DNA of 64,000 bases, taken from the NCBI GenBank assembly GCA_947561395.2, contig OX387187.1, positions 3,168,976 through 3,232,975 of the forward strand. Reading direction: 5' to 3'. Position 1 is the first letter of the stretch; each line of letters begins with the position of its first letter. Below the pieces are notes generated by a model. That model had not been told where the DNA came from. It did not search any database and saw nothing but the letters and a program-made list of their open reading frames with translations. Both the position numbers and the translations under genes were made by a program. Positions 20,816 to 47,059 of the stretch are shown here, piece after piece. The DNA is from Buxus sempervirens. Taxonomy: Eukaryota; Streptophyta; Magnoliopsida; Buxales; Buxaceae.

Positions 20816-20835
20816 GAACTCCATTAACAATCAGC

Positions 20836-25912: not shown

Positions 25913-27004
25913 GGTACCTCCCCTTGGACCCAGCACAATGAGCCAGTTTTTTTTTATCTCTGACAGAGTGTCTATCTTGTGTTTTTTTTGTGATTAGTGC
26001 TAAATGTGAATGATATTTCCGAACCGAACCGGATAAACCAAGAGGGTTTCTGGGTCACCCGGAAACCCGACATGGGACTTGGACTCTCGGTCCAACTTGA
26101 CTTCCAGTGGGCCTTCCAACGGGGCCCACCAAGCCCAATAAACACCAAAGCATGCCATTAAAATAACTTAAGTAAAATGAACAATTTGAACCAGGCAGGC
26201 CAAACCCAATGCCTCCCACCCGAGCCTTGTTATGTGAAATTGATGCGTGAATTGCGTGGTTTGGCCGAGACCAAGGGCAAGGGCCTACCGGGCCCGCCAA
26301 AGCCCTCCAACCAAACCAAGGAAGGGTACAAACCCTAACTTCCGGTAACTTGGGCTTACAAGCCCAGATTTGGACTGCGGGCCCCAAGCCCAGTGTCCAA
26401 ATCACTTTGGCAAAATTAAAAAGATAAATCCAATAAAAAATACTCGGACACCATGTGGGCCCACCTTAGGGGCCCACAAACCGGTCCGGCCCACTTGTGC
26501 ATGAAAAACACTTAATCTTCAAATCTGAGCTTAAAGTAAAATCAATTGAACTAACCAAAGCCCAAAGGACCTCTCAGGCTAGACTGAGGTCCACAAGGGT
26601 ACACGGGCTTGACTAAGCCCACCAAGGATACCGTGGGCCTTCCAACGGGGCCCACCCAACCAGACTCAGATCACCAAAGTAATCAAGATAAAAGCAATTA
26701 AAGGGACCCACACCACTCAGGTGGTCCCGCCAGACTTAACCCAACTGCATATCGGATTAGGAATCGGGTGAGACCAATGTAAGCTGACTCAAACCAGGGA
26801 ACCCACGGGACCCGTCATCCGACGGGGTGGACCGGGGTGTCTACAGACTTCCCCGGACCACAACCGAGACCCTACTTAGAATCTCAAGCCGCAGACCAAA
26901 AAGCCCTAATAGGCAAGATTAGGCACCCAGGTGTCCGCCTGCACCCCATCAGGCGGTGGCGACTCCGAATTACCCCGTGCTGCGTTTCCGACGCGCGCAC
27001 GGCC

Positions 27005-27021
27005 TGCGACTCCACTGGGGA
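27005..27021 (+). promoter_or_regulatory. Primer binding site of element F
   Basis: TGCGACTCCACTGGGGA just after the LTR end. In H the same place reads TGGCGACTCCGCTGGGGA (52709-52692, minus). The first ~12 nt fit the 3' end of plant tRNA-Arg, the primer reported for Ogre elements. The F copy has lost one G, which may weaken priming. The tRNA assignment is from memory and was not checked. Confidence 0.65.
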
Positions 27022-28530
27022 CATTTCAGCCCAGTAGGACCCTGGTTAGATAAGTCAGCATAAAGAGAGATTTAGTTGACGTTTAGGGTTTCTTACTACC
27101 CCATTTAGTAAGATACAGAATACGCGTAATTACACGTTCTGGGGAGTCCTGTCAAAGGGACGCGATAATTGCCTAAGGCAAGTGGGATTTAAGCGATCCC
27201 TTGTGACCCCCCACTTACCTGGGGACTCTCCCGGAACCTCGTATTGCGTGCTAATTCTGCACCTTGCTATACGAGACAGTAACAATCCCTTTACCAACAA
27301 AATCTAGACAAATCTCACCTGTGTAGACACAACACGCAGCCCAACTGCACACACGGGCACACCACCACACCGTGGATGGATTTTTATTTCCGTTCTTGTG
27401 AGATAAACTGCGTGGGGTGACACGCACAAGGGAGGCTGCGTGAATGATCCGACCCTTGGTAGATGAGTGAAATCGGATATTGCTACTTCTTTACCAAACC
27501 TAGACCTCTCTAGCAGCCTACCCTTCTGATTCCTATGAACTGATCTTTGGGATGGTATTAGCACCTACGCTCCCGTGGCTTGCCGGGGAAAGCAAGGTCA
27601 ACCCATCCCCCCAGTTTGCTGGAGTCCATTAGCACCACTGGTTTCTTGCCGTGGCACGCGAGGATCCAGTACTGGTCCAGACCCTTGTAGGCTTATGTCT
27701 CGGGCTGGGTATCCTTCCCCACCTAACGTTTCTGAATGAACCTTGCGTTGAACATGAGAGGGTGAGTAGGATGTGAATGATGAATAAAATTGGAATAAAA
27801 TTCAGAGTCCATCAGGGGCAGCAACCCCCGCTTTTTGCATCAAATGGAGTAAACCCTAGATGCTGGGCTACCTCGGCCCTAGCTCAGGAAGCTCACCTAA
27901 CCATGATCAGGGGAACCACCCCAGATCCATGCATGGAGTCCTGTATGCTATGGGTTTTGACCCATTAGAGTCCGCTGGGAGCACTTTAAGTCCAGATTGG
28001 TCTTTTAGAGCAGATGAAAGCCGGCCAGATCAGACAAACAGATGAAAGCATGCCAAATCAGAACATGGGCACTAAACCCTAGATCTAGGAATTTTTTAGC
28101 CTACCCACTTGAAAAGCAATTTGTATCCTCCCTTTTGGCTCCCAACAGCCTTAAGGATGAGTTCTTTGAAGTTTTGGTGAATATCTTGTAAACCTTCGCC
28201 CTCGATGGCAAGTTGTAATTTTGCCTTGGTCCGACACCGGAAGCAGATGAAAGAACAGATGAAAAACAGAAAGACTGATCAGGACTTGAATGTGCTCCTT
28301 TACACAAGTACGTCTAGGAGTCGCGCCTTCATTGGCGCCAACCCTTAGGACCACACACCATGTGTGCTTGAGTTAAATTTCGAACTGGTTTTGTCTTTTG
28401 CTTTATTTTGTGAAGCATGTTAGAACTACTAGTGATTAGTTTTTTGCTTGAAATTTTGCATGTCTTAGGACTGATTAAGAGTTTGGTGTGGAACCTTAAA
28501 CTGATTTGGAATTTTGATCGGATAGTTGGC
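27022..28530 (+). other. 5' leader of element F
   Basis: A 1.5-kb untranslated region with no gene-like frame. It matches the H leader (inverted 51194-52691) over its whole length, and its last ~450 bp match G from 17936. It ends directly before the ORF1 ATG at 28531. Confidence 0.7.
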
Positions 28531-29964
28531 ATGGCATCTTCATCCTCATCTGAGAGAACCCGTTTCCCTAGGATAGAGAAGTGCGCCTAGGATACCCCCT
28601 GGATCCGTTCTTGGACAAGGCAGCTCCAAGGGAGTGAGCAGATTGAATGGGAGCACAAATACCACATGGGACAGACTTTGTCCCTGTTAAATGTGCCAAG
28701 CAACTGGGATATGATCCAAGCAGCTTTGCTTTTCTGGGATTCCCAGCTTTCAGTGTTTCGATTCTGGATCAATGAGTTGACTCCCACAATTGAGGAACTT
28801 GACCTGTTCCTCCGATTTCGCGACTTAGGAGAACCCGCTAGGCCAAGTCTCAAAGAAAGCTACAAGAATGAAGCTTGCGCTTTCTTTGGCCTCTCAAGGG
28901 GAGAATTCCAGACCTTAGGAGGTGACAAATCATTCACTAGAGTCTCCAAAACATTCCTTGCTAAAAAAATAAGAAACAAAAAGCAGGAAAGACCCCGGGC
29001 TTGGTTTGACACCTTCACCCTTGTGGTTCTGTCGCAAATCTTCTTTCCAACTGGGGGAGACACCATTAATTTGGCCCTCATGGAAATTGTAGATCAACTC
29101 AGGGCAGGGTACCGAATCATGCCACTGATCCTAGCTCAACTGTTCCATTCCCTGACTTTGTCCAAAAACGGAACCCGGAGGTTTCAAGGGTGCGCTCCCC
29201 TCCTCCACCTTTGGCTGCAAGACCACCTGATGGTGTCATCACCAGTCAGTGCATATTACAAGGCAACTGGCGACAACATCTGTTGGTTGGCTCGAAGAGA
29301 GATCAAACCAGACCTACCCACTCGTAAGGATTGGTTTAACCACTTTCTCCACCTGAAAGGAGAAACGGACATCAGATGGTGGGGTATATACAACATCCCC
29401 TAAACCCCCATTATAGCTTTCAAGAAAAGAGAGGGACTTGCCTTGATAGGCCTCACCCATGCCATGCCATACTATCCGATTCGGGTTCTGAGACAGTTTG
29501 GGAAACCGCAGGGAATCCTGGTCAAGGACGACTTGGGCAATTTGATTGGCCCACTCACCAAGGGACTAAGGACCCACCTGCTGATAGAGTGGAAGACGGT
29601 GTGCGTGTATCGGGAAGACGTCTTCACCGAATTACACTTTCAAGATTACGAGCAGTGGATAGCTCGGGAATTTGGCCACAACGGCCCCCAACCTCTTCAG
29701 CCTGTCGCATCAGGCGACATTCCAGTTCCGCCCCCTAACACATATAGGGACAGGGTGGCCGAACTACAGGAGACCCACTCCCGTATCCATTCAGCTTATG
29801 TGGATTCGGAACGGGAGAGTAGGCAGGCCAATACGGCCTTGCAACATGAAATGGAATTAGTGCGCAAGCGTGCTGAGGAGGACCGACGTCTGCGGAACAA
29901 CCTTCTGCGAGCCTTGAGGAGGCAAGACGTGTCTTCCCACTATGATGATGACCAACCTAGCTAG
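28531..29964 (+). pseudogene. ORF1 of a Tat/Ogre-type element, two premature stops (element F)
   Basis: The extra ORF upstream of gag typical of Ogre-like elements; function unknown. I believe it belongs to the plant DUF7745 type (cues WWG near residue 285 and MPYYPIRVLRQFGKPQG near 308-324), from memory. From ATG 28531 (MASSSSSERTRFPRIEK) the frame is continuous for 477 codons except for TAG at 28588-28590 (codon 20; the H copy has Trp) and TAA at 29401-29403 (codon 291; H has Tyr). Both are consistent with single-base changes. The C-terminal third (about residues 405-465) is a charged helix likely to coil (RVAELQETHSRIHSAY, EMELVRKRAEEDRRLR). No membrane segment or signal peptide. The H copy (50265-51193) confirms the frame. 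Confidence 0.8.
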
Positions 29965-30283
29965 ACTTTGGCTTTGTTGTATTTTTGATGATGTACTTTG
30001 TGCCGCGGCGGCACTTTTTGATTGAAGCATGAATTTATTTTCACTATGCTATGTTATTCAAACTTAACAAAACAAGAACAAGAAATGAAAGAATTAATTC
30101 CCTCCAATAGGGCAACACGGTCTCCAACAGACCACCTCTTCTCAGATAATTGCAATATTCCTGGTCGCTGCGACCACCTAATCTCCTTTAATGGCATCTC
30201 TCTTATTGAGATCGCAAAACCCAGCAAGTGCTAAAAAACACCCAAGACCTTGAGCTCAGATCACACCCGTCTGTATCTTTTCG
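29965..30283 (+). other. Spacer between ORF1 and tandem array (element F)
   Basis: Untranslated sequence after ORF1, including a GC-rich inverted repeat GTGCCGCGGCGGCAC at 30000-30014. No gene seen. Confidence 0.5.
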
Positions 30284-31865
30284 AGATCATTCGGTCCAGC
30301 CTGTAGGGCACTGAAGCTACCGGTGATTAAACCGTTTGGTGGATGAACGTCCTGGTATAGCCTTCCCCTTGTGAGGCGCCGAAGTCAATGGTGATTAAAC
30401 CAACGACTAGCTAAGGCACGCCCGGGAACTACTAGCCGAAACCTTTGGGGCACTGAAGCCGCCGGTGATTAAACCGTTTGGTGGATGAACGTCCTGGTAT
30501 AGCCTTCCCCTTTGTGAGGCATCGAAGTCAATGGTGATTAAACCAACGACTAGCTAAGGCACGCCCGGGAACTACTAGCCGAAACCTTTGGGGCACTGAA
30601 GCTGCCGGTGATTAAACCGTTTGGTGGATGAACGTCCTGGTATAGCCTTCCCCTTGTGAGGCGCCGAAGTCAATGGTGATTAAACCAACGACTAGCTAAG
30701 GCATGCCCGGGAACTACTAGCCGAAACCTTTGGGGCACTGAAGCCGCCGGTGATTAAACCGTTTGGTGGATGAACGTCCTAGTATAGCCTTCCCCTTTGT
30801 GAGGCGCCGAAGTCAATGGTGATTAAACCAACGACTAGCTAAGGCACGCCCGGGAACTACTAGCCGAAACCTTTGGGGCACTGAAGCCGCCGGTGATTAA
30901 ACCGTTTGGTGGATGAACGTCCTGGTATAGCCTTCCCCTTTGTGAGGCACCGAAGTCAATGGTGATTAAACCAACGACTAGCTAAGGCACGCCCGGGAAC
31001 TACTAGCCGAAACCTTTGGGGCACTGAAGCTGCCGGTGATTAAACCGTTTGGTGGATGAACGTCCTGGTATAGCCTTCCCCTTGTGAGGCGCCGAAGTCA
31101 ATGGTGATTAAACCAACGACTAGCTAAGGCACGCCCGGGAACTACTAGCCGAAACCTTTGGGGCACTGAAGCCGCCGGTGATTAAACCGTTTGGTGGATG
31201 AACGTCCTGGTATAGCCTTCCCCTTGTGAAGCGCCGAAGTCAATGGTGATTAAACCAACGACTAGCTAAGGCACGCCCGGGAACTACTAGCCGAAACCTT
31301 TGGGGCACTGAAGCAGCCGGTGATTAAACCATTTGGTGGATGAACGTCCTGGTATAGCCTTCCCCTTTGTGAGGCGTCGAAGTCAATGGTGATTAAACCA
31401 ACGACTAGCTAAGGCACGCCCGAGAACTACTAGCCGAAATCTTGGGGCACTGAAGCCGCCGGTGATTAAACCGTTTTGTGGAGGAACGTCCTGGTATAGC
31501 CTTCCCCTTTGTGAGGCGCTGAAGTCAATGGTGATTAAACCAACGACTAGCTAAGGCACGCCCGGGAACTACTAGCCGAAATCTTGGGGCACTGAAGCCG
31601 CCGGTGATTAAACCGTTTTTTGGAGGAACGTCCTGGTATAGCCTTCCCCTTTGTGAGGCGCCGAAGTCAATGGTGATTAAACCAACGACTAGCTAAGGCA
31701 CGCCCGGGAACTACTAGCCGAAACCTTTGGAGCACTGAAGCCGCCGGTGATTAAACCGTTTGGTGGATGAACGTCCTGGTATAGCCTTCCCCTTTGTGAG
31801 GCGCCGAAGTCAATGGTGATTAAAACAACGACTAGCTAAGGCACGCCCGGGAACTACTAGCCGAA
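30284..31865 (+). repeat. 142-bp tandem array, 11 copies, in element F
   Basis: Eleven units of 142-143 bp with few differences; the GAACGTCCTGGTATAG landmark sits at 30345, 30487, 30630 and so on to about 31767. Each unit is itself an imperfect dimer: both halves contain a C/GAAG..-GGTGATTAAACC block (one followed by GTTTGGTGGATG, the other by AACGACTAGC). The array sits between ORF1 and the knuckle ORF, where G has its capsid gag. No long frame runs through it. High similarity among units suggests recent amplification or homogenisation. Confidence 0.92.
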
Positions 31866-32007
31866 GTTAGGCGCCGACGCCACCAGTGAATGAACTGGAG
31901 ATCTGGCTGAGGTACGCCTGGGTGCTGCTTTTCAGCGTCCCCCCTGCGGAGACCCTACATTGGTCCAACCCTGTGATTCTGAGCTCAAAACAAAACCCCT
32001 TTAAATT
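31866..32007 (+). other. Unique spacer between two arrays (element F)
   Basis: Contains a diverged partial unit of the 142-bp repeat (GGCGCCGACGCCACCAGTGAATGAAC) and no coding frame. Confidence 0.5.
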
Positions 32008-33150
32008 AAAGGTTCTCTTCCCTTGTTACCTACGGGTAGCTAAAATAGATCAGTTAATTCATTAAGGTTCTCTTCCCTTGTTACCTATGGGTAGCTAAAA
32101 TAGATCAATTAATTCATTAAGGTTCTCTTCCCTTGTTACCTACGGGTAGCTAAAATAGATTCGGTCATTAGGGTTCTCTTCCCCGGTCGTCTTAGGGCAG
32201 CCAAAATAGATCAGTCTTCAAGATTCGTTAGGGTTCTCTCTCCCAGTTACTTGCGGGCAGCTAAAATAGATTCGGTCACCAGGGTTCTCTTTCCCAGTCG
32301 CTTCCAAGCGACTAAAATAGATCAGCTTTCAGAAAAATAGGGTTCTCTCTCCCAGTTACCTACGGGTAGCTAAAATAGATCAGCTAATTCATTAAGGTTC
32401 TCTTCCCTTGTTACCTACAGGTAGCTAAAATAGATTCGGTCATTAGTGTTCTCTTCCCCGGTCGTCTTAGGGCAGCCAAAATAGATCAGTCTTCAAGATT
32501 CGTTAGGGTTCTCTCTCCCAGTTACTTGCGGGTAGCTAAAATAGGTTCGGTCACCAGGATTCTCTTTCCCAGTCGCTTCCAAGCGACTAAAATAGATCAG
32601 CTTTCAGAAAAATAGGGTTCTCTCTCCCAGTTACGTACGGGTAGCTAAAATAGATCAGTTGATTCAAAACCAGGTTCTCTTCCCTTGTTACCTATGGGTA
32701 GCTAAAATAGATCAGTTAATTCATTAAGGTTCTCTTCCCTTGTTACCTACGTGTAACTATAAAAAAAAATCAGTCTTCCAAATTCATTTGGGTTCTCTCC
32801 CCTGGTCGTCTCAGGACAGCCAAAATAGATCAGTTTTCCAAATTCATTAGGGTTCTCTCTCCCAGTTACCTGTGGGTAGCTAAAATAGATCAGTTGATTC
32901 AAAACCAGGTTCTCTTCCCTTGTTGCCCTAGGGTAGCTAAAATATATTAGTTAGTCCAAATCCAATCAAATAGATCAGTTTTCCAAATTCATTAGGGTTC
33001 TCTGTCCCAGTTACCTACGGGTAACTAAAATAGACCAGTCTTCAAATTCATTAAGGTTCTCTTCCCTTGTTACCTACGGGTAGCTAAAATAGATCAGTTG
33101 ACTCAAAATCAGGTTCTCTTCCCTTATTGCCTCCAGGCAACTGGAATAGA
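32008..33150 (+). repeat. ~57-bp tandem array, about 20 copies, in element F
   Basis: Each unit has GGTTCTCTTCCC, then a short inverted pair (TACCTACGGGTAGCTA or GTCGCTTCCAAGCGAC or GTCGTCTTAGGGCAGC), then TAAAATAGATCAG. The middle pair changes sequence between units while staying partly self-complementary (TACC...GGTA, GTCGC...GCGAC). Higher-order repetition exists: the block at 32119-32360 recurs at about 32395-32640. No coding frame. Confidence 0.9.
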
Positions 33151-33297
33151 CCAGATAGACACACAAAAAACAAAAAAAAAACAAAAAAAAAAACAAAAAA
33201 AAACAAAAAAACAAAACAATCATTAGCATCATCCCTATGTATGCTAACATTTCATATTATTGTATTCTGCCTTCTAATGTTTATCTCTCCCTTCAAG
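33151..33297 (+). other. A-rich stretch and splice-acceptor-like site (element F)
   Basis: CAAAAAA-type runs (33163-33217), then CTTCTAATG (branch-point-like) and CTCCCTTCAAG with AG at 33296-33297. Same arrangement as 20682-20815 in G. Confidence 0.5.
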
Positions 33298-33316
33298 AAC
33301 CGTGTCAACAATCAAC

Positions 33317-33844
33317 ATGGATAGTACTTCAAGGATGCTTCCTGTGGTGCGCGAGATACTGGACCTTTTCCCTATTTTAATGAAAGTGATACAGGACAAA
33401 GAAGAAGCATGGGGCAAACATTGGGAAGCACAGAGGGAAGAACATTTTGAGCTGCAATCCCGAATAAGGGATCTGGAGAGGGAGATGGAAAGCTTGAAGA
33501 TAGAAGTATTCCAGGGCAATCAGGAAGCGAGCCTCCCCTCTGCTAACAATGGTGCACCTCGCCTCAAGAGGCGCCTCACCAAGGAAGAAAGAAGGAACCG
33601 GGAGTTTACGCAGCTTCCATGCACCCAAGCAAAGTTGTTGCCTTCCTTGTTGCAAGAAGGACACCTAAAGCAGGCTCCACCAAATCCAAAGGCATCGGCA
33701 AGTCGAGGGTATGACCCGTCCAAGACATGCAGTTACCACAAAGGAGCTCCGGGGCATGATACTGAAGAATGTTGGGGTCTTCGCCATGCAATCCAAGACC
33801 TTCTTGATGCCGGGGAGCTCAGGATTGATCCTTCGTCGGGTTAA
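33317..33844 (+). CDS. Short gag-type ORF: coiled coil plus altered zinc knuckle (element F)
   Basis: An intact 175-residue frame starting at ATG 33317, 20 bp after a splice-acceptor-like site. Residues 20-65 form a charged helix (KEEAWGKHWEAQREE, LEREMESLK). A basic segment (PRLKRRLTKEERRNREFTQL) leads to the knuckle C138-x2-H141-x5-H147-x4-C152 and LRHAIQDLLDAGEL. The first ~70 residues match the start of the second G ORF (20836), while the rest, from about SLPSANN, matches the end of the first G ORF (20148-20681). It is therefore a hybrid of two adjacent G reading frames, keeping one knuckle of two. The capsid domain is absent from F. Likely nucleic-acid binding; no enzyme motif. Confidence 0.75.
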   Translation: MDSTSRMLPVVREILDLFPILMKVIQDKEEAWGKHWEAQREEHFELQSRIRDLEREMESLKIEVFQGNQEASLPSANNGAPRLKRRLTKEERRNREFTQLPCTQAKLLPSLLQEGHLKQAPPNPKASASRGYDPSKTCSYHKGAPGHDTEECWGLRHAIQDLLDAGELRIDPSSG

Positions 33845-35817
33845 GAAAAATCTCTCGGAATATGCAACTAAACTCCAAGAACGCGGATCCACATCGACCA
33901 CCCTTTTTGCGCAATTGCTATTCTGTTTTGCTTATGCTTTCTTTTCTTTTAAATTCTGAACTGGATAGCATGTTTCTTCTTCTGCAAGCTTATAAAAATA
34001 TTTTGGGAAATCACTGAAGTGCTGGACCACACCAAGGCATGACCATAATCTCGGGACAAACCTAAACAATCGAATTTGACAAGTGAAATGTGCCAAGCAG
34101 CACAAACTGCCCGAGTCTCAATATAGCCAAGAGGCCCCCCCAGCATCCTGTTTGGAACCCACCCTGCCAAACACAGGGGCAAGCGGGGATATGAGAGAAG
34201 AAAAAAGAGAGAGAGCAAGGTGCCCATACCGGTCTCGGGCCACCGACATGATCCAGGATCAATGAACCCAACGAAATGATGAGAGGCCATTTTTGGCTGA
34301 GATACCCCAAATGAATGCCGCTAGTCAAACGTGTTGAGCTTGATCGTCTCATTTTTAACCCACGTTATGTCTAGCCACCCCGAATTGGGGCAAAGTCAAA
34401 AAGCAAAGAAAAAAAAAGCAAGCAAACAAAATGAACAAAGAAGAAAAATGGTTCTCGAGCCAGTTAATCGTGCAAAAGTAATTAAGTGTTACATTCTCTG
34501 TGAAAGGATGAAAGGCCATCCTTGATCTTTCCCAAAAATCATCTGACATAAGATGAAACCCTAGCAAAACACTTTGAGCCTAACAACTCCTTCATTGAAC
34601 CTACCATGTCTTGTCTTCAAAACGGGGGCATAAAGCTTCGTGCAGTCGGAGACACAAAAAGGATGAAGGTGAAGATAGGACAAAGCGAAAAGCACCCTAA
34701 GAACAAAGGGGGCAAAAAGGAGGGATGAGGAGAACCCTATAAAACAAAAAAAAAACTGGGGCAATCCCTTGAAAGAAAGGAAAAGAAGAAAAAAGAAAAG
34801 AAAAGGAAAAGTAAGGGCAAACCCCGAAGGCAAGGGCCAAAAGTTGGGGCAAAAGAAAAAAGAACCCGAGACAAAAAGAAGAGAAAGAAAAACAAAGATG
34901 GAAGAAGGAGAAAGGAACTACAAATTAAAGTTGAACACAGAGTTGGGGGAGCCGAAGGCGAAGCAAGCCCTAACAAGGAAAGTGGACAGGACATGGCCTT
35001 TAACCCGTGCATTAATTTCAAGCCTTCATATCATTTCTTCTGGACCCTTAAGCCCAGCCTACATTTCGTCCTACTGTGAAGTCCTTTCTGATTACAGAGA
35101 ATGTAGCATCGAATCTTGGACAGGCCGGCAATGACAGAACTAAAAAAAAAAAAACAGAGAAGTGTTTTGGCTAGACATAATGGTCACCCATAGAGTGAAG
35201 TTATATAGGGTTTGAGCTTGTGTATCCTTCATTTCTAAACCCTGGAACCAAGGCCTACATTTCGTCCTAAGGATAAGTCCTCTCTGATCATTGTGTCATG
35301 ATCCATGGAAATTGTTAGGGCCCTTGGACTGGGCAAGGCACTGAACCCGAATAAGAGAACCAATGAGAGAAAAACCATTTCACAACCCTCAAACAAGGGC
35401 AGGGAGAGAAATACCAAAAATAGAAAATCAAAGAGAAGGCAAGGTGAGGCAGTGCCAAAGCAACCCCCCTGAACCAAAACGATTCCCCTCATTTCAACCT
35501 AGGGCATGCCCTTGAAGGCCGGAATGTTGAGACACTTGCAGGAAGTGCCGAGAGGCACATTTTCCTAAGTCTAACTGAGAATAACAGGTAACCGACCCAA
35601 GGGTTACTGGTCTTGCCATGGACCCACTTCAAAGGGAAAATCCAAGCATTCGGTGAATTCCCAAAAGACATCAACCAAAGAGAGACTGCTTGAATTCGCA
35701 CATAATCTTGAGGATAAAAAAAAAAATTTAACTAAATTCTACTTGGACTTTTGCAGGTACTGACAAAACCTGAGACAGATAGGAAAGGTCGTCACGGTGT
35801 ATTCGTACATTGGTTGA
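33845..35817 (+). other. Long intron-like region and leader (element F)
   Basis: No coding frame. Homologous to G 21598-23620. Contains two copies of the CCTACATTTCGTCC block (35058, 35253), A-rich runs and GGGGCAA words. The acceptor-like TTGGACTTTTGCAG|GTACTG has its AG at 35755-35756. One CGTCACGGTGTATTCGTACATTGG unit follows. In-frame stops at 35761 and 35815 separate the acceptor from the pol frame, so simple read-through from this acceptor into pol is not possible in frame. Confidence 0.5.
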
Positions 35818-37629
35818 CAAGAGTTCGTGAAGCCAAGGCCACTGACGGATGAGTCAAAGATCGGCGGAAGGGTTTTTGCAAAAAAAAAAAAGAGAAGAGC
35901 ACAGAAAGAAATAACCAAATCAGAATATGTAAATGAAAAAGGGATCGGAGCAGTGCTAATCTCCCTAGACGGTGTTCATCACCCAATAGCAGCAAAACTT
36001 CTGTTTGATTGCACCAGCAACATGGCCGAGTATGAAGCGTGTGTGTTGGGCTTGCGAGCGGCAATTGAGATGCGTATACAAGAGCTGAAAGTGTTCGCTG
36101 ATTCAAGTCTTATCATCTATCAAGTGATGGGAGACTGGAAGACTAGAGATGTGAAGTTGGTACCATACCAAGAACTGGTCAAGGAATTAGAAGGCGAATT
36201 CGAGAGCGTGACATTCGACTACATGCCACGAGACGGGAACCGGTTTGCGGATGCACTAGCTACGCTAGCATCAATGGCCACCATCACGGATGATGCTTGG
36301 GTGCAACCTTTGGAGATAGAAATTCGGCGTTACCCTGTTTACTGCTTCAGTGTCGAGAAAAGCACGCCCGAAGAAGAGCCTTGGTACGCAGACATTGAGA
36401 GATACATAAGAAACAGAATTCTGCCAGAAGGTGCCTCAGCTGCAGAGAAGCGAACTATACAGAGGTTGGCAGGGCAATACTTCTACAGTGGAGGTAGACT
36501 GTACAAGAAGTCATACAATGACTCTCTACTACTATGTGTCAGGGAAGCCGAGGCGCAGAAATTGATTGAGGAAATCTATGGAGGGTTGTGCGGCGCACAC
36601 ATGAACGGGCATATGCTAGCAAGGAAGATTCTAAGAATGGGCTATTACTGGATGACCATGGAGGCAGACTGCTACGCTCATGTCAGAAAATGCCAGTTAT
36701 GCCAGATTTATGCCGACAACATCCATGCACCGCCAAACACACTGTATTCCATGACATCGCCATGGCCATTTGCCATCTGGGGAATCGACATGATAGGCCA
36801 GGTTCATCCAATGGCGTCGAACGGGCACCGGTTCATCTTAGTGGCAATTGACTATTTTACCAAGTGGGTAGAGGCCATGTCCTTCGTGGATGTGAAGAAA
36901 TCTCATGTGCTCAAGTTTATCAGAAACAATATAGTCTGTCGCTACGGAGTTCCAGAAGCGATCATCACTGACAACGCAAAGAATTTGAATAATAAGGACA
37001 TGGAAAAGATGTGCGAAGACTTGAAAATCAGACATCTGAACTCCACGGCATACCGGCCCAAGATGAAGGGAGCAGTAGAGGCTGCCAACAAGAATCTGAA
37101 GAAGATACTCGAGAAAATGGTGGTCACCTACAGAGACTGGCATGAGAAGTTGCCGTATGCACTGCACGCCTATCGAACGTCGATTATAACATCAACCGGG
37201 GCAACCCCGTTCTCCTTGGTATACAGAATGGAAGCAGTTCTCCCAGTGGAAGCACAGATCCCGTCACTCAGAATTCTTAAGGAAGCTGAAATCAGTGATG
37301 TCGAATGGGAAGAATCCAGATTTGACCAGTTGCAGTTATTGGATGAAAAGAGGATTAAGGCTTTGTGCCATGGCCAGCTTTATCAACAGAGAGTGGCGCG
37401 AGCCTACAACAAGAAAGTGAAGCCACGACAGTTCAAAGTGGGAGATCTGGTATTGAAGAGAATCTTCCCTCTTCAAGAGGACAACAGAGGGAAATTCAAG
37501 CCAAACTACGAAGGGCCGTTCGTAGTCTACAAAGTCCTGTCAAGAGGAGAACTCATCCTACAAGAAATGGACGGGGCAATTTTTCCTCAGCCGATAAATG
37601 CAGACGCAGTCAAACTGTACTATGCCTGA
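35818..37629 (+). CDS. pol: Truncated pol: archaeal-type RNase H plus integrase, no reverse transcriptase (element F)
   Basis: Open for about 600 codons with no internal stop. No ATG near the start: the frame opens after TGA at 35815, a GTG stands at 35827 (taken as residue 1) and the first in-frame ATG is inside RNase H (MAEYEA). RNase H (about 38-150) keeps E68 (AEYEA), D92 (FADSS) and D142 (NRFADALA), but the first-strand Asp is missing, since a Lys-rich linker replaces it. The integrase has an H258-x3-H262-x26-C289-x2-C292 zinc site, then D321, D382 and E418 in exact D,D-35-E spacing, and a C-terminal GPF motif (YEGPF, 561-565). Protease, reverse transcriptase and first RNase H are wholly absent. 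The integrase looks intact and could insert DNA in the nucleus if supplied with a template made by another element. It would probably be expressed as part of a longer product. Confidence 0.88.
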   Translation, partial: QEFVKPRPLTDESKIGGRVFAKKKKRRAQKEITKSEYVNEKGIGAVLISLDGVHHPIAAKLLFDCTSNMAEYEACVLGLRAAIEMRIQELKVFADSSLIIYQVMGDWKTRDVKLVPYQELVKELEGEFESVTFDYMPRDGNRFADALATLASMATITDDAWVQPLEIEIRRYPVYCFSVEKSTPEEEPWYADIERYIRNRILPEGASAAEKRTIQRLAGQYFYSGGRLYKKSYNDSLLLCVREAEAQKLIEEIYGGLCGAHMNGHMLARKILRMGYYWMTMEADCYAHVRKCQLCQIYADNIHAPPNTLYSMTSPWPFAIWGIDMIGQVHPMASNGHRFILVAIDYFTKWVEAMSFVDVKKSHVLKFIRNNIVCRYGVPEAIITDNAKNLNNKDMEKMCEDLKIRHLNSTAYRPKMKGAVEAANKNLKKILEKMVVTYRDWHEKLPYALHAYRTSIITSTGATPFSLVYRMEAVLPVEAQIPSLRILKEAEISDVEWEESRFDQLQLLDEKRIKALCHGQLYQQRVARAYNKKVKPRQFKVGDLVLKRIFPLQEDNRGKFKPNYEGPFVVYKVLSRGELILQEMDGAIFPQPINADAVKLYYA

Positions 37630-39835
37630 GATCATTCTGATTGGGAAATGAAGAGAGGCCATCCTTGACTCTCCTTAGACTGTAAATCCTTCCAAATACC
37701 TTAAATTCTCCCCTAGTTAGACAATTTTGAGCCTTAAAATTCTTTCAACCCATTGCAAGTGTTCTACACATCAAATGGGGCATTCCTGGCAAAGCAAAAA
37801 GAAACCGGGCATTCTTGCCCAGAAAAACCTCAAAAAGAAGAGAAAATACAACAAGAAAAAAGAAAGAAAGAAAAAAAAAGAAAAGAAACAGAGAAAATGG
37901 GGAAATGTTTTCCCCGCCAAAAATATAGAGATACAAATAAGCCAGGATGTAAGACCCACCAACAATAAAAATAGCACACTCTGCAAACCCAGATAATTAA
38001 GCTTTTTTGAGCCATCTATCCTTTCTTTCATAACCGAGACCCAGCCTACGTTTCGTCCCATCTCTAAGACCTCTCAGATCCCAAAAAGAATGATCAGGGC
38101 AAACAGTTAGGTTTGCGTTCATCAGCAATGACGGAATTCAATGTTTCCTAGAAAGGATGGACACAGCGAAAACCCGAGAAAAGGGCGTTGCGTGGTTAGT
38201 CAAAAAAAAAATAGAACTGGTCACATCTGGTTTGAGCAGAGCAAGATACAGAGGAGAGCAGTGATAGTGGCAGATAGTAAAATGAGAAAATTGAACAGAT
38301 TTGAAAAGTCCAGACTGGCAGGTTGCGCCCGAGTCAAAGACTCCACAGTGGCCTGTGATGACAATGCTTCTGAAAGTACCAAGCACTCCAAGTCCCGTCT
38401 GACCTTGGGAAATTTCTTTGATATTGCAAACACAGGCACCCACTGACACACCTGTTTTCTCTATAATTGTTCTGCTTAACTGTTTTGAGCTCCACGTTGG
38501 GCTACTAACCTAAGTGGATAGTCTCTTAACCTTGGCAAAGGCCGCTTCTATCTGCAATGGGCAAAAGGCTCAGAGCAAGAAGAGAATAAAAGAAGTGTTT
38601 TGCATTCCCCAGCTATTCCACGGCTAACATGTTGTCTTTTCCTGCCTTCACAGGTACGGCAAAAGTGGGATAACGGACATCTTCTCCAAAATCCCAGCGG
38701 AGTTCCTTCAGTAAACGGAGAATAGCAACCTCCAAAATCCGCAGTGGGAGGCCTTCAGCAAACAAGGGACGACACCCTTACATCCCCAGTAGCGTCCTCT
38801 CAAGCAATAAGAGAATGATATCGGTGACGTAGACTTGTCAAGCCTCGCCCAGTCTGAAGAGGCCGGCTTTGCGAAGGAGAGCGGAAAGAAGGCAAGTAAG
38901 CTCGCATCAATGCCTGGTGGAGCCTCTCGCACTCAACAAGAGCTTGAACGAACATGAAGAATTCGCACCCAAGCAGAGGGAGAAGGCCTTATGAAGGAAA
39001 ATGACAGCGTGAGGAATCCCCACTTATCCCCAGCGGAGCATCCTTCCCCGGGGAGCTCCCACGCTTGTCACTAACAAGGCTCGACCTGAAAGAAGAGGCG
39101 ATAAGAAAAAAGGTTCCTGCCCAATCCCCAGCAACAGTCACTCCAGGCTAGGGAGCCTCTACAAGGGGGAAAGCCAATCAGAGAGCACTGCAGAAGAAGG
39201 AATGACAAGACGTGAAGAAGAATGAGCATAAAAGAAGATATCATCGGGCAAGATGGCCCCTTTTGTAATTTTGATTTCACACTTTTGTAAATAGAGTAGA
39301 GCAGGTGTGTGGGCTCCCTTGAGGCACTGGACAGCGCTGGAAGCACCTCCTCACCAACAGCAGCTCCTCCTCCACTCTTCCTTCCTCCTTTCTCCATTCA
39401 GTCCACATCCTAACCCAACCCTTGGCCATCAAATCCTATAAAAAAAATGCAAGCAAGCTTCAAGTAAAAGACACAAAATGGATCAGAAGTCTGAAGTCAC
39501 CAAAAAGCTTTAATGGAACAAACAAGAAGAAAAGAATATTGTCAAGTGTCTGGCATCGACGCCGAAACAGGTTGGCGAGCTCAAGTCCAATCTAATCTCT
39601 TTCAAACTTAAACTAAAAAGCTGAAGAGTTGCCCTACAAAAACCCAAAAAGCAAAGGGTAAGGAAACTCTGAAGCCAGGAAGTGGCGCCACATGATTTGG
39701 CCGCTTCCCTCTCAAAGTGAAAATTTCAAAGGACTAAACTCGTCAACCATGTCGACAGAAATGCCAGGCGCAAAAACGAGATTCTCGTTCTCTTTGCCAT
39801 TCATCCGCAAGGTGACTCCGGCAAAGAGGGGCAGC
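37630..39835 (+). other. 3' UTR of element F with polypurine tract
   Basis: No gene. Contains an A/G-rich stretch (37820-37900), a further CCTACGTTTCGTCCC block (38044), a degenerate repetitive stretch (38690-39060; CAGTAAACGGAGAATAGCAAC / CAGCAAACAAGGGACGAC-like units) and a block at 39200-39400 shared with G (44640-44830). It ends in GCAAAGAGGGGCAGC (39821-39835), the polypurine tract for plus-strand priming, directly abutting the LTR start. The G copy at 45237-45251 is identical. Confidence 0.75.
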
Positions 39836-42800
39836 TGTAAGCACCTTATTTTTGCGCTCCCACAAAAAAACCAAAAATACAAACCCTGGACAGAAAGTCA
39901 AACCCTAAGGGGTGAAAAGTTGACTTTTTGATCAAGTGAAAATTGGCCACCTCGCTTTATGCCATTGGATAGAGAATCTCAACACGGTTCCAACGCAACT
40001 GAGTTTGCAGGAATCGGGGTCCGGATGAAGGTTCGGCGGGAGGTCAAACTTAAGGAAAAGCCAAGAGTTGACTTTTCCTCGAATTCCGTGCCAAGTACCT
40101 AGCTTTATACCATTGGATAGAGAATCTCGACACGGTCCCAACGCAACTGGGTTTGCAGGAATCGGGGTCCAGATGAAGGTTCTGCGGAGGGTCAAACCTG
40201 AGCAGAGCCAAAAGTTGACTTTCTGCTAAAATCCGATCCAGAGGCCTACCCCTAGGTCATTGGATAGAGAATCTCGACACGGTTCCAACGCAACTGAGTT
40301 TGCAAGAATCGGGGTCTGGATGAAGGTCCTGCGGGCGGTCAAACTTGAGCAGAGCCAAAAGTTGACTTTCTGCTAAAATCCGATCCAGAGGCCTACCCCT
40401 AGGTCATTGGATAGAGAATCTCGGCACGGTTCCAACGCAACTGAGTTTGCAGGAATCGGGGTCCGGATGAAGGTTCTGCGGGCGGTCAAACTCGAGCAGA
40501 GCCAAAAGTAGACTTTCTACTCAAATCCGATCCGGAGGCCTACCCCTAGGTCATGGGATGGAGGGCTCCGATACGATTCTAGTGAAACTAAGTTTGCCCA
40601 GATCGGAGTCCGGATGAAGAAAATATGAGCTGATGAAATTTCCGAGCAGCAAAACCGGCAATCTGCGCACGTGGCAAAAAGCTGCACACGTGGCGAGTTG
40701 CGCAGGAAAATATCTCGAGGATCAAATCCGTAAATATCCAAACATTCGAAATATCCTAGGCACTGAATCTGTAAAAATCCGAGAATATCGGATTAAATTG
40801 AAATTTTCCAGGGACTAAATCCGAAAATTCGGATTTTCTGCCAAACGCGCGGCGGCATTTAATGATTTTTCATCATTATGCCGCTCGCACAAACGTGGCG
40901 AGCGGCAGGCGCTCACCTTGAGCTGGGCGCCGAAATGAGCGGCACCCCTTTCCCCCTTGCCTATATAAACCGCGCGATTGCTCGCGCAAAAAGGTTCGGA
41001 CATTTTTTTTTGGTTGGAGGATTTTCAGGTCGGCTTCTGGTTGATGTTGGCTCGCCCCCTCTTCCTTCTTCCCTCCCTCACCCGAACCTCTTCTCGAGAT
41101 ACGGCCTTGACTCCCTAGCACCCCAAACACCCCACCTACCATTCTCAACCCTTCCCCCTTTTGTCTTCTCCACTATCTCACGAAGCCCCAAAAAAAGGGA
41201 GGTTGCTGTTGAGGATTCGGAGGAGGACCCAGCTACTACCAGTGTCTCCACCCAGCACCAGTGCTCGAGTATTCTCAGGTATCACTCTTTACTACCTTTT
41301 ATTCCTCATATATGAAAGTGGAGTTTTTCTAAGCAAGTTACTGGATGTGTTTTTTTTTCTCTTGTTATAAACCTGTTTAAATGCCTCGGTGGCATGATAC
41401 CGTCCCCTATCCCACTTCATGAAGACTACCAGGTAAAGAGAGGATTAGATGTCGGTTTCATAAAAGTGAGAGTTAGTCCATCCTACTCCCTTTGTGGTTC
41501 GGATCGCTGTTTTTCTTGGTTGTTGTTTTTTTGTTGTTATTTGTTGTTGTTATATTGGTATGATTTGAAGGAGGGAGCATATTCCCCAAGTTCCCTTCAT
41601 TTAATGTACCCCTGTAAACCCGCCTTCTCCTTCCCTTCTCTCCGAATGTCTGCATGCATGCACAGAGGTTAGGGACATGCGTAGGTGAGAAAAACTAGGT
41701 TTCCATGTTGCATAGGCAATCTCTGTTTATTAGTGTTTTTTTTTCTTGTTGTTTTATTGTTTGCTATACTTGCTAGCATGCTCCCATCACCCCCCCTTTT
41801 TTTTAAGCTGTTAATGCATTTGTACTTGTTTGTTTTTTATCGGGTTTGTTTTTTCTTTTAAGAGATTTTGGGTTGCGGGATGAAGCATGAATCATGTTTA
41901 GATTAATTTCAATACAAGTTTAAGTATATTTTGGGGAGTGGTCGAAGCCCTGGGAGGGCTTACAGAGCTTAAAAAACCAGTTACAGAGCCTGAAAATCAG
42001 CTAAAAATGGAGTTTGAAAGAAAACCGAGAGCATCGAGTGTCCGCGAAGCTCACGCGAATCTCGTGAAGCTCGCGTGAATCTCGCGAAGCTCGCGCGAAT
42101 CTCGAGAAGCTCGCGCGAAGCTCGAGCGAATCTCGCGCGAATCTCGCACGAAGCTCACGCGAATCTCGCGCGAAGCTCGCGCGTACCCTTCGCGCGAACC
42201 TCACGCGTACCCTTCGCGCGAGGCTCGCGCTCAGCTCGCGCGAACCTCGCGCGAGGCTCGCGCCCAGCTCGCGCAAACCTCGCGCCCACTTCATTTTTTT
42301 GTGTTTTTCGCTGTTTTCGGTCCGCCCATTTCGCGCCGACCTCGTGCCTACTACCTGAGGTCGGCGCCTACCCCTAAAACATGCCGAATTGATATATTTT
42401 TGAAAATTTCCAAAAATGCCCTTTACTGTACAGCGGGGGGCTTCGCCCCCCGCACCCCCACCCCCGGGTACCTCCCCTTGGACCCAGCACAATGAGCCAG
42501 TTTTTTTCTCTCTGACAGAGTGTCTATCTTGTGTTGTTTCTGTGATTAGTGCTAAATGTGAATGATATTTCCGAACCGGATAAACCAAGAGGGTTTCTGG
42601 GTCACCCGGAAACCCGACATGGGACTTGGACTCTCGGTCCAACTTGACTTCCAGTGGCCCTTCCAACGGGGCCCACCAAGCCCAATAAACACCAAAGCAT
42701 GCCATTAAAATAACTTAAGTAAAATGAACAATTTGAACCGGGCAGGCCAAACCCAATGCGGCCCACCCGAGCCTTGTTATGTGAAATTGATGCGTGAATT

Positions 42801-43546
42801 GCGTGGTTTGGCCGAGACCAAGGGCAAGGGCCTACCGGGCCCGGCAAAGCCCACCAACCAAACCAAGGAAGGGTACAAACCCTAACTTCCGGTAACTTGG
42901 GCTTACAAGCCCAGATTTGGACTGCGGGCCCCAAGCCCAGTGTCCAAATCACTTTGGCAAAATTAAAAAGATAAATCCAATAAAAAATACTCGGACACCA
43001 TGTGGGCCCACCTTAGGGGCCCACAAACCGGTCCGGCCCACTTGTGCATGAAAAACACTTAATCTTCAAATCTGAGCTTAAAGTAAAATCAATTGAACTA
43101 ACCAAAGCCCAAAGGACCTCTCAGGCTAGACTGAGGTCCACAAGGGTACACGGGCTTGACTAAGCCCACCAAGGATACTGTGGGCCTTCCAACGGGGCCC
43201 ACCCAACCAGACTCAGATCACCAAAGTAATCAAGATAAAAGCAATTAAAGGGACCCACACCACTCAGGTGGTCCCGCCAGACTTAACCCAACTGCATATC
43301 GGATTAGGAATCGAGTGAGACCAATGTAAGCTGACTCAAACCAGGGAACCCACGGGACCCGTCATCCGACGGGGTGGACCGGGGTGTCTACGGACTTCCC
43401 CGGACCACAACCGAGACCCTACTTAGAATCTCAAGCCGCAGACCAAAAAGCCCTAATAGGCAAGATTAGGCACCCAGGTGTCCGCCTGCACCCCATCAGG
43501 CGGTGGCGACTCCGAATTACCCCGTGCCGCGTTTCCGACGCGCACA
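39836..43546 (+). repeat. 3' LTR of element F (complete, 3711 bp)
   Basis: Starts TGTAAGCACCTTATTTTTGC after the polypurine tract and ends GACGCGCACA. The first ~730 bp are four to five tandem 146-bp units (landmark CACGGTTCCAACGCAACTG). It then has hairpins, TATA at 40962, a donor-like CAG|GTATCA at 41278, a C7 run at 41790 (15 C in the 5' LTR), a long GCGC array (42037-42372) and an ~80-bp insertion holding AAATGCCCTTTACTG (a single unit of the repeat amplified in the G LTR) and a GGGGGGCTTCGCCCCCC hairpin. A GGCCCA-rich 3' half follows. The primer-site-like TGGCGACTCC is at 43504-43513. Confidence 0.88.
40962..40968 (+). promoter_or_regulatory. TATA box of the F 3' LTR
   Basis: TATATAA in CTTGCC-TATATAAACCGCG, equivalent to 24638. 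Transcripts from here would read out into the G array and LTR. Confidence 0.65.
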
Positions 43547-45251
43547 CACTAACCACAGAAAGCAAAGCGTCTCTCAAGACTGAAAGGGCAAGGCGTCCCT
43601 GGAGCAGGGCGACTCCAAAACTAATGGAACAAGGTGTCTCCCAACCACAAAGAGCAAGGCGTCTCTCAAGGCTGAAAGGGCAAGGTGTCCCTGGAGCAAG
43701 GCGACTCCAAAACTAATGGAGCAAGGTGTCTCCCCACCACATAAAGCAAGGCGTCTCTCAAGACTGAAAGGGCAAGGTGTCCCTAGAGCAAGGCGACTCC
43801 AAAACTAATGGAGCAAGGTGTCTCCCAACCACAGAGAGCAAGGAGTCTCTCAAAACTGATAGGGCAAGGCGTCCCTAGAGCAAGGCGACTCCAAAACTAA
43901 TGGAGCAAGGTGTCTCCCAACCACAGAGAGCAAGGCGTCTCTCAAGACTGAAAGGGCAAGGCGTCCTGGAGCAAGGTGACTCCAAAACTAATGGAGCAAG
44001 GTGTCTCCCAACCACAGAGAGCACGGCGTCTTTCAAGACTGAAAGGGCAAGGTGTCCCTAGAGCAAGGTGTCTCCTAACCACAGAAAGCAAAGCGTCTCT
44101 TAAGACTGAAAGGGCAAGGCGTCCTTGGAGCAAGGAGACTCCAAAACTAAATGGAGCAAGGCGACTCCGAAACTAATGGAGCAAGGCGACTCCCAACCAC
44201 CGAGAGCAAAGCGTCTCTCAAAACTGAAAGGGCAAAGCGTCCCTGGAGCAAGGCGACTCCGACCATTCGAATGACACGGAAATGTGTCCCTAAGGAGCAA
44301 GACGTCTCCCACCATTTGAATGACACGGAAATGTGTCCCTAAGGAGCAAGACGTCTCCCACCATTTGAATGACACGGAAATGTGTCCCTTAGGAGCAAGG
44401 CGTCTCCCATCACTTGAAATACTGAGGAGCAAGGCGACTCCCACTTTTGAAATCCCCAAGGAGCAAGGCACCTCCCACATCTAAATAACACAGGAATGTG
44501 TCCTCAAGGAGTAAAGCATCTCCCAATGCTGAAGGACATGGAGTCCCCAGAGCAAAGTGTCTCCACCAAGCCGAACAAGTTGTTCCCATTGCTGGAAATG
44601 ATAGAGAATCAAGACAGGAAGAAGAAGGCAAAATGAAGATATCATCGGGCATGATGGCCCTTTTGTAATTTTTGATTTCACACTTTTGTAAATAGAATAG
44701 AGCAGGTGTGTGAGTTCCCTTGAGGCACTGGACAGCACTGGAAGCACCTCCTCACCAACAGCAGCTCCTCCTCCACTCTTCCTTCCTCCTTTCTCCATTC
44801 GGTCCACATCCTAACTCAACCCTTGGCCATCAAATCCTAAATAAAAAAAATAAAAAAAAGAAGAAGAAGAAAATGCAAGCAAGCTTCAGGTAAAAGACAC
44901 AAAATGGATCAGAAGTCTGAAGTCACCTAAAAGCTTTAATGGAACAAACAAGAAGAAAAGAATATTGTCAAGTGTCTGGCATCAACGCCGAAACAGGTTG
45001 GCGAGCTCAAGTCCAATCTAATCTCTTTCAAACTTAAACTAAAATGCTGAATAGTTGCCCTACAAAAACCCGAAAAGCAAAGGGTAAGGAAACTCTGAAG
45101 CCAGGAAGTGACGCCACATCATTGGCCGCTTCCCTCTCAAAATGAAAACTTCAAAGGACTAAGCTCGTCGACAGAAATGCCAGGCGCAAAAATGAGATTC
45201 TTTTTCTCTTTGCCGTTCATCCGCAAGGTGACTCCGGCAAAGAGGGGCAGC
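43547..45251 (+). mobile_element. Right part of element G interior: 3' arrays, 3' UTR, polypurine tract
   Basis: Resumes the G 3' tandem array on the right of the F insertion. The array (43549-44480) is the inverse-orientation partner of the E arrays. A 3' UTR block (44640-45250) matches F 39240-39835, including the GCAAAGAGGGGCAGC tract at 45237-45251. No coding sequence. Confidence 0.75.
43549..44480 (+). repeat. Tandem arrays in the G 3' UTR
   Basis: About eight ~90-bp units made of AACTAATGGAGCAAGGTGTC, TCCCAACCACAGAGAGCAAG, GCGTCTCTCAAGACTGAAAG and GGCAAGGCGTCCCTGGAGCA sub-units (to ~44265), followed by three ~53-bp units with GAATGACACGGAAATGTGTC. Same two unit types, in the same transcriptional order, as in element E. 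A broken start of the array lies left of F at 23750-23831. Confidence 0.88.
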
Positions 45252-46234
45252 TATAAGTATCTCATTTTTGCGCTCCCAAAAAAAAAAAAAAACAGAAATG
45301 CAAACCCTGGACAGAAAGTCAAACCCTAAGGGGTGAAAAGTTGACTTTTTGATCAAGTGAAATTTGGCCACCTCGCTTTATACCATTGGATAGAGAATCT
45401 CGACACGGTTCCAACGCAACTGAGTCTGCAGGAATCGGAGTCCGGATAAGGGTTCTGCGGGCGGTCAAACTTGAGCAGAGCCAAAAGTTGACTTTCTGCT
45501 TAAATCCGATCCAGAGGCCTACCCCTAGGTCATTGGATAGAGAATCTTGACACGGTTCCAACGCAACTGAGTTTGCAGGAATCGGAGTCCGGATGAAGGT
45601 TTTACGGGCGGTCAAACTTCAGCAGAGCCAAAAGTTGACTTTCTGCTAAAATCCGATCCAGAGGCCTACCCCTAGGTCATTGGACAGAGAATCTCGACAC
45701 GGTTCCAACGCAACTGAGTTTGCAGGAATCAGAGTCCGGATGAAGGTTCTGCGGGCGGTCAAACTTGAACGGGGCCAAAAATTGACTTTTTGCTAAAATC
45801 CAGTCCAGAGGCCTACCCCTAGGTCAGGGGATAAAGGGCTCCGATACAATTCTAACGCAACTGAGTTTGCCCAGATTGGAGTCCGGATGGGGAAAATATG
45901 AGCTGACGAAGTTTTCGAGCAGCAAAACCGGCGAACTGCGCACGTGGCAAAAGCTGCACACGTGGCGAGTTGCGCAGGAAAATATCTCGGGGATCAAATC
46001 CGTAAATATCCAAACATTCAAAATATCCCAGGGACCAATTTGAAAATATCTGGAAATATCTGAATAAAATAATATTAAACCTAAATATCCCAGGGACTAT
46101 ATCTTAATTTTCGGATTTTTTAAACAAAACCGCGGCCGCATTAAATGTTTGGCAATGATTTTGTCGCTCACGCCGAGCGACAGCAAGTGGGCGCGAGCTG
46201 GGCGCCAAAGTCGGCGGATATCCCTTTCTCCTTC

Positions 46235-46241
46235 TATAAAA
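46235..46241 (+). promoter_or_regulatory. TATA box of the G 3' LTR
   Basis: TATAAAA in CCTTC-TATAAAAGCCGCAGC, at the position equivalent to the F TATA box. Confidence 0.65.
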
Positions 46242-47059
46242 GCCGCAGCAGCCTTCATTTGCAGGGGTTGGACATTTTTTTTTGCCCGAGGCATTCGAAG
46301 GTGGTCTTGACCATCATCTTCCCCAAAGAAAAAAAACCAGACCCCCCCATTCCTCTCTTCCTCTTCTTCCTCATCAAACCCGAAGGAGATCAAACCCTAA
46401 GGAGATCTTGCTGTGGGCGTGGAGAGGTGTTGCTCCGGTGGCTGCTCGCACGCTCCAAGGAGGCTCCACCCACTTCGGATAGGTGTTGAAACACCCAGGT
46501 AATGTTCCCGACGAACTCTTGTCCAAAATAAATAAGTTCATTGCGATATCTTGTTTTCTAGCATTTTTGTTCTTCACTGCTATTACTTGTTTGTTTGATT
46601 CGAAAGGGGAGCATGTTCCCCATGATTTCTCCATCTCTGTTGTTGTAACCCCATAAAACCCCCCCTGTTCCCTTCTTCATAATCATGTTCTATTAGTTAG
46701 GTTTTTTGATTTCGGAAGTTTATTCATGTTCTGTAGGGTTTAGTGTTCGGATTTGTAGGGTTGTAAAGAGATTTGATCCTCACAACTTAGGTTAGATTAA
46801 TTTCAAATGGTGTTTAGAGGTCTTCTGGGGTTCTAAGGATCCCAGGGAGGGCTTACAGAGCTTAAAAACCATTAAAAATGGAGTTCGGGCAAAAAAACAG
46901 AAAATCAGGGTATATGCGCTCACTTCATTTTTGGATGCGCTCAGCTCGCGCTCACTTAGTTTTGGATGCGCTCAGCTCGCGCTCACTTAAATTTGGATGC
47001 GCTCAGCTCGCGCCCACTTCACTTTTTGGGTGCGCCCACTTCACCTTTACCTTAAAAAA

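Follow-up and report, generated by a model that had tools for sequence, protein, structure and literature searches.

Non-autonomous LTR retrotransposons of plants include TR-GAGs, in which gag is the sole coding region, and LARDs, whose long internal region has no coding capacity. Ogre elements are recognized by an extra open reading frame (ORF) upstream of gag, a very large size and long LTRs, together with a spliced intron between gag-protease and pol; Onsen is a Copia element. Partnerships between dependent and autonomous elements are known from maize, in which Cinful carries pol and Zeon carries gag (PMC8547701), and from wheat, in which RLG_Cereba and RLG_Quinta form an autonomous/non-autonomous pair; sequence exchange between Quinta lineages has been ascribed to template switching (PMC11302176). 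Among grass centromeric retrotransposons, inter-element recombinants proliferate alongside non-autonomous derivatives (noaCR5), and their differing breakpoints were taken as independent origins (PMC4079200), while members of the Onsen family recombine frequently and pairwise during transposition bursts (PMC5668417). Non-autonomous Retand elements, of a non-chromovirus lineage, have tandem arrays between pol and the 3' LTR, and some Retand clusters are without GAG, AP, or RH and INT. The Retand survey, for which Cinful-1 served as a reverse transcriptase (RT) query, began from complete RT domains, so that an RT-less form could not appear there (PMC11963269).

The element described here lies in a 64,000-nucleotide stretch of Buxus sempervirens contig OX387187.1 (positions 3,168,976 to 3,232,975 of the forward strand; hereafter the window). 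It is a recombinant non-autonomous satellite, in which an already known type of partnership appears in a variant, the capture of an RNase H-integrase segment without RT. As with Cinful and Zeon, a gag-coding partner would depend on a pol-coding one; unlike Zeon as presented in the passages on that pair, gag here survives as a remnant of 188 aa, and an RNase H-integrase fragment is carried by the dependent partner (PMC8547701). As in the Cereba/Quinta pair, parts of the LTRs and the primer binding site (PBS) are shared and gag is retained, whereas Quinta, in the sections devoted to it, has GAG and a domain of unknown function without RT and INT; our element keeps a 3' fragment of pol, and a single middle segment has two fusion points (PMC11302176). 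Proliferating recombinants likewise link our element to the grass centromeric families, but these are chromoviruses with absent or truncated RT and integrase, and the relevant portion of that paper describes no RT-less RNase H-integrase frame (PMC4079200). The likeness to Onsen lies in recombination among family members; Onsen is a different, Arabidopsis family, and no defined satellite figures in the part of its account concerned with recombination (PMC5668417). Retand is a related lineage and resembles our element in its tandem arrays (PMC11963269). Our literature search, with subscription papers largely outside its reach, found no RT-less RNase H-integrase LTR family.

The features of the focal element and of two relatives in the window, designated B and C, are as follows.

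14269 to 16437, minus strand: relative C, with the same filler as the focal element, then 92-bp repeats of 3' UTR type; no pol match
20366 to 23675, plus strand: relative B, with gag remnants and filler; without RNase H and integrase
23826 to 27000, plus strand: focal 5' LTR, truncated on its 5' side; 97–98% identical to 40152-43547 in two long pieces (58 mismatches over 2,985 sites)
28531 to 29964, plus strand: ORF1 (DUF7745 / plant mobile domain by Pfam), with two in-frame stops
30300 to 33157, plus strand: leader tandem arrays, of 143-bp units to 31865 and of ~275/55-bp units at 32005-33157; common to the autonomous element
33278 to 33844, plus strand: mini-Gag ORF of 188 aa, with a zinc-finger-like motif in its C-terminal part
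33845 to 35920, plus strand: non-coding filler with Lys-rich stretches; common to the pol-less relatives B and C and absent from the autonomous copy L039
35921 to 35929, plus strand: point at which the filler is fused to autonomous pol; 8 of the 9 copies of the presumed older form have an AATGGA overlap
35929 to 36282, plus strand: truncated archaeal-type RNase H, with the first strand and catalytic Asp gone and E71, D95 and D145 retained
36445 to 37629, plus strand: integrase, with zinc site, D,D-35-E core, C-terminal GPF region and stop codon
37309 to 37629, plus strand: the stretch of integrase kept, with nothing else of it, by the sister family K, whose junction is at 37309
37630 to 39195, plus strand: 3' untranslated region (UTR), ~93% identical to an autonomous copy
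39196 to 43549, plus strand: 3' LTR

The ORF at 35818-37629 encodes 603 residues and one terminal stop, and what the initial annotation observed in it is confirmed. The integrase with a D,D-35-E core, zinc site and GPF tail is located residue by residue: the HHCC set is present, and D324, D385 and E421 are in place, with 35 residues separating D385 and E421. Pfam places rve at residues 317-414 (E 7e-11, over its cut-off) and Integrase_H2C2 at residues 243-298 (E 8e-5), the latter scoring 23.1 bits and thus under its 25.5-bit cut-off. The archaeal-type RNase H is mostly kept, as claimed, with RVT_3 at residues 42-150 (E 7e-15) covering profile positions 14-122 of 123; the first 13 are without a match, and in the autonomous partner the match begins at profile position 2. 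The frame is open for all 603 codons, against a claim of 600, and both stops reported in ORF1 of the same element were seen. RT and the native RNase H, said to be lost together with the protease, are indeed gone: when 300-aa pieces of an autonomous polyprotein were used as tblastn queries, residues 601-2236, which contain both domains by Pfam, had no match in the window at E 1e-3, ruling out a location of either elsewhere in the window. The protease part of that claim stands less firmly; it would be expected within the same unmatched residues, but Pfam found none there in the autonomous polyprotein itself. The description of the locus as a pol reduced to RNase H and integrase is apt for its domain content and not for its origin, the middle of the element having come from another family, one without pol. 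The PKM-x-GAVE motif departs from the others at residue 417, where the focal copy has Lys and each of the 41 other aligned copies covering it (24 junction and 17 autonomous) has Asn. With 58 differences between the flanking LTRs over 2,985 sites, we calculate that less than one new stop would be expected in the focal frame since insertion, and the openness of this frame is by itself weak evidence of use.

The focal LTR pair has a K2P distance of 0.020 over 2,985 sites, which at a substitution rate of 1.3e-8 per site per year would put the insertion at about 0.8 My. The filler of the focal element is 81% identical to that of relative B and 77% to that of relative C. Beyond the junction point, relative B continues into GGAGCAAGG-type repeats, which a truncated LTR follows. 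The truncated LTR at 23826-27000, the LTR at 39196-43549 and a third at 44600-48503 form an LTR-sharing array over 23826-48503, and between the last two lies a 3' UTR-like tract of 92-bp repeats alone (about 43551-44420); this array suggests LTR-LTR recombination. Within the LTRs are short, C+G-rich alternating 9- and 11-bp units (25706-25830 and 42023-42283), which differ among LTR copies, and 147-bp tandem repeats (39950-40690 and 45223-45963). Another element, at 50265-53963 on the minus strand, comprises an LTR end and ORF1 region ~84% identical to focal positions 26984-29460.

In the 676-Mb source genome the focal protein has at least 73 matches (73 of 12,423 candidates listed). Sixty-two of those listed, which begin at residues 31-38 and in many cases lie in long open frames (up to 2,809 codons), were treated as autonomous copies; 11 begin at residues 1-23, ten of them belonging to junction copies, and a match from residue 23 at C19:36369280 lies outside the junction-search matches listed. 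The autonomous copy L039/L040 has gag, RT, native RNase H, RVT_3 and rve within a single 2,802-codon frame. L039 (1-1480) aligns to the focal leader arrays (31538-33197) at 77–80%, has no counterpart of the focal middle, and aligns again from 35921 with 96% DNA identity over the RNase H-integrase segment. At the 3' side, L040 matches the focal UTR at 93% and the LTR ends at 92–93%, the LTR middle being more diverged or unmatched, and at the 5' side a further autonomous copy, L093, which carries an open 496-aa homologue of ORF1, aligns to 26036-30868 at 86%, across the LTR/PBS boundary. The focal middle, at about 33.2-35.92 kb and consisting of the mini-Gag and ~2 kb of filler, is common to the pol-less relatives B and C. 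The focal element is a three-part chimera, with 5' and 3' parts matching autonomous elements and a middle matching a pol-less family. Its agreement with L040 in the LTR ends and with L093 across the LTR/PBS boundary is that of a partnered element. At the junction point, relative B reads AGAATAAGTAATGGA and autonomous pol reads GTAAATGGAAAAGG, with the six bases AATGGA in common. Nine junction copies have a form that we take to be the older, the order of events being unrooted; five of them read exactly AGAATAAGTAATGGA and eight retain AATGGA. In 15 others the junction resembles the autonomous sequence at more of its bases, and the remaining two, L020 and L023, have variant forms.

The autonomous partner has the domain order RVT_1, RT_RNaseH, RVT_3, rve by Pfam, with an archaeal-type RNase H downstream of the native one, and this dual arrangement, with a full DEDD set, marks the Tat clade (PMC10508981). 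The focal element itself has lost the native RNase H and the first Asp, and its kinship to the Tat clade would run solely through its 96% DNA identity to L039. ORF1 with its DUF7745/PMD domain, the ~4.35 kb 3' LTR and the ~12 kb internal region are Ogre-like in size and ORF content; the intron of Ogre elements is missing, since a single frame of 2,802 codons spans gag through integrase in the autonomous copy, and on this account we name the element Tat-clade and Ogre-like without filing it as Ogre. It is neither a TR-GAG, since besides its mini-Gag it has the remains of ORF1 and the long frame for RNase H and integrase, nor a LARD, since it has open frames of 603 and 188 codons.

The junction is shared by a family, J. 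With a 147-bp query (40 of 604 genome candidates listed), at least 26 copies on 11 contigs span it at 83–100% identity, and the 14 others among the 40 listed begin at the pol side. By coordinates, mini-Gag lies upstream in 23 of the 26 (21 at ~2 kb, two at 3.6 and 4.4 kb), and all 26 are missing the first strand and catalytic Asp of the RNase H. Ten of 25 J copies are open across the aligned part; among the 24 other J copies that cover the seven D,D-E and HHCC residues, 20 keep them all, as the focal copy does, and L017, L018, L027 and L028 do not. The integrase segments of L013 and L014, 21.5 kb apart on C15, are identical in their aligned part, and these two copies are likely a tandem or duplicated array. 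Neither of the two results that the initial annotation named as refuting occurred: other copies share the junction, and dN/dS among them is 0.105 (NG86, 300 pairs), far under 1, which together identify an amplified non-autonomous family and not a one-off deletion.

The same middle has been joined to the autonomous element a second time. Of 40 mini-Gag copies without the J junction, 12 were read over 3 kb, and in ten (L053-L055, L057-L059 and L061-L064) the fusion lies at the equivalent of 37309, in the C-terminal part of the integrase; the 3-kb stretches read in L056 and L060 contain no pol. This form, K, retains the last ~105 integrase codons alone, without the catalytic core. Its junction is spanned by at least 18 genome copies, in addition to split matches (40 of 1,043 candidates listed), a spread comparable in copy number with that of J, and K shows that a closely related satellite can spread without an integrase core. 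By eye, form K has an additional filler repeat ahead of its junction, at which an overlap (GAAG) is at most arguable.

The dN/dS of the J integrase frame rules out simple neutrality; the value was obtained from 25 copies (the truncated L010 was excluded) and compares with 0.045 among 17 autonomous copies, which were chosen by similarity to the focal sequence and, in 13 cases, additionally by a long open frame. The integrase segment has a history that differs from that of the filler and is mixed with that of autonomous copies. The integrase tree rejects monophyly of J, at p-AU 0.008 when 17 autonomous copies are included and 0.004 when 37 are; a split with 98% support has 16 of 25 J and 9 of 17 autonomous copies on one side and the remainder of both on the other. 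The filler topology and the integrase topology are mutually incompatible (p-AU 8e-37 and 2e-6; 24 J copies, leaving out L010 and L028), and distances in the two segments are weakly correlated (Spearman 0.37). Labels cluster on the integrase tree, the J/autonomous label changing 9 times against a mean of 19.7 (minimum 9) after shuffling, and the tree contains no mixed clade of 2-6 copies at 90% support, so that individual recent exchanges between J and its helpers are not pinned down.

Variant counts from 25 J and 37 autonomous copies, for which the neutral ratio of nonsynonymous (N) to synonymous (S) changes is ~2.65, separate what J shares with its helpers from what is its own. Variants occurring in both groups number 196 S to 42 N, and most non-singleton J variants are found in autonomous copies as well. 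Shared variants private to J number 33 S to 33 N plus 4 stops, and those private to autonomous copies 32 S to 12 N; singletons number 65 S to 143 N plus 12 stops in J and 48 S to 70 N plus 2 stops in autonomous copies. Across test variants, J-private shared variants lie at 0.23-0.38 of neutral N/S. The contrast with helper-private variants narrowed as helpers were added, from 0.30 vs 0.06 of neutral with 17 to 0.38 vs 0.14 with 37. By Fisher's test, J-private variants differ from all other shared variants (p 1e-7, 17 autonomous copies) and from autonomous-private ones (p 0.013 with 17 autonomous copies, 0.019 with 37 and 0.012 with the ten intact J copies); RNase H and integrase parts do not differ significantly (p 0.60 for all copies, 0.29 for intact ones). 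Substitutions exclusive to subclades, which are few, number 7 N to 4 S in four J subclades, some of them nested, and 0 N to 4 S in three autonomous ones. Variation private to J is relaxed, though not neutral, leaving room for constraint within the family. Selection within J alone was not adopted as the explanation, the bulk of the constraint residing in variants shared with helpers; as J is not a clade, and most of its non-singleton variants are shared with autonomous copies, its low dN/dS appears to be largely borrowed by exchange.

No start codon or reading frame leading into the integrase ORF is conserved upstream across the 26 J copies. The linker upstream of the pol part is in differing frames among copies and ends in a stop immediately before pol in L023, which eliminates it as a conserved protein part; the initial annotation was correct that it is Lys-rich and that the first RNase H strand and its Asp are gone, but the Lys-rich stretches lie in non-coding filler. 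Ten of the 26 copies have an in-frame Met upstream of the junction, but of the ten intact copies just two do (L012 and L016); in the focal frame no Met precedes residue 69, which lies within the broken RNase H. A putative splice acceptor near 35735, considered by eye as a source of the frame, is followed in the focal copy by a stop in the integrase frame. A conserved route by which integrase could be produced is not apparent to us. The proposal of the initial annotation that the element could supply its own insertion step fails to gain support from these data, in which dN/dS is largely shared with helpers, start and frame are not conserved, and K has spread without the integrase core; an own supply of integrase is improbable, and nothing in the data requires it.

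The mini-Gag has 63 genome matches of at least 78% identity over 174-188 residues. In 41 copies (21 J and 20 others) its 564-nt frame has no indel, and 31 of the 41 are without a stop; the copies were chosen among matches of nearly full length and mostly retrieved from one match end to the other, which biases the set against indels. The filler is by contrast rich in indels, the focal 1,600-nt stretch occupying 2,282 alignment columns. Shared mini-Gag variants lie at 0.40-0.42 of neutral N/S and singletons at 0.90, making moderate constraint plausible; because this is no stronger than that on J-private integrase variants, the mini-Gag is not singled out. Its C-terminal part, containing the zinc-finger-like motif, is 45% identical to the C-terminal part of the autonomous Gag. 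The N-terminal part resembles ORFs of about 262 aa (58–64%) and the C-terminal part ORFs mostly of about 450 aa (about 75%), and the mini-Gag may itself be a fusion.

What has to be accounted for is the mosaic, the shared junction, the second fusion in K, and a distinct 3' history mixed with that of helpers. We hold it quite probable that the element is a helper-dependent recombinant satellite of a Tat-clade Ty3/gypsy retrotransposon, its integrase frame largely borrowed by exchange. Both fusions would go back to reverse transcriptase switching templates when helper and satellite RNAs were packaged together; the shortness of the overlap in J, the existence of two fusion points and the mixture of histories at the 3' side would all follow from this. 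The satellite would be copied in trans by the RT, protease and integrase of the helper, and its own integrase frame would be mostly a passenger, kept clean through exchange; the benefit of the captured 3' end would lie in cis signals (3' UTR and LTR) and not in protein. That J translates and uses its own integrase, borrowing cDNA synthesis only, would fit the retention of the seven catalytic and zinc residues, the low dN/dS and open copies, the upstream Met in some copies and a ratio of 4 S to 1 N among integrase-only private shared variants of the ten intact J copies, counts that are few and lean to constraint. We consider it improbable, however, given the varying linker frames and start, the position of the first focal Met, the share of helpers in the low dN/dS, and the success of K. 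It seems very improbable that a satellite with a conserved 188-aa mini-Gag and at least two captures of helper 3' ends has J copies translating integrase, by internal initiation or from spliced RNA, as an extra trans-acting supply for the pair. A single autonomous element with a one-off deletion, drifting after insertion, would account for the broken focal ORF1 and has virtually no chance of being correct, since at least 26 copies span the junction and the middle is absent from L039 and matched in pol-less relatives.

The order of events is unrooted and was reconstructed without an outgroup genome, and on that ground J might have come first, as a decayed autonomous element from which the pol-less family and form K were later deleted. 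This too appears very unlikely, because the pol-less relative B and L056 run beyond the junction point into repeats of 3' UTR type, B and C fall outside all J copies when the filler tree is drawn with its root on C, and an extra filler repeat seen by eye precedes the K junction. The manner of exchange is more debatable. Chromosomal gene conversion or unequal crossing over could have produced the same mosaic in place of template switching, a route compatible with the satellite explanation; the LTR-sharing arrays of elements in the window and the identity of the two C15 copies in their integrase part speak for it. On balance we find it doubtful, as a six-base overlap between otherwise unrelated sequences at the founding junction fits template switching, and J copies are spread over 11 contigs.

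For a helper-dependent satellite of this kind, an intact frame of low dN/dS may be largely borrowed from the helper by exchange. An open frame with low dN/dS is commonly taken as a sign of use, and caution is warranted when the domains of non-autonomous retrotransposons are annotated on that basis. The fusions J, in the RNase H, and K, in the tail of the integrase, join one satellite middle to one helper and constitute a natural replicate of helper 3'-end capture; the pair makes it testable which parts of the helper the satellite requires.
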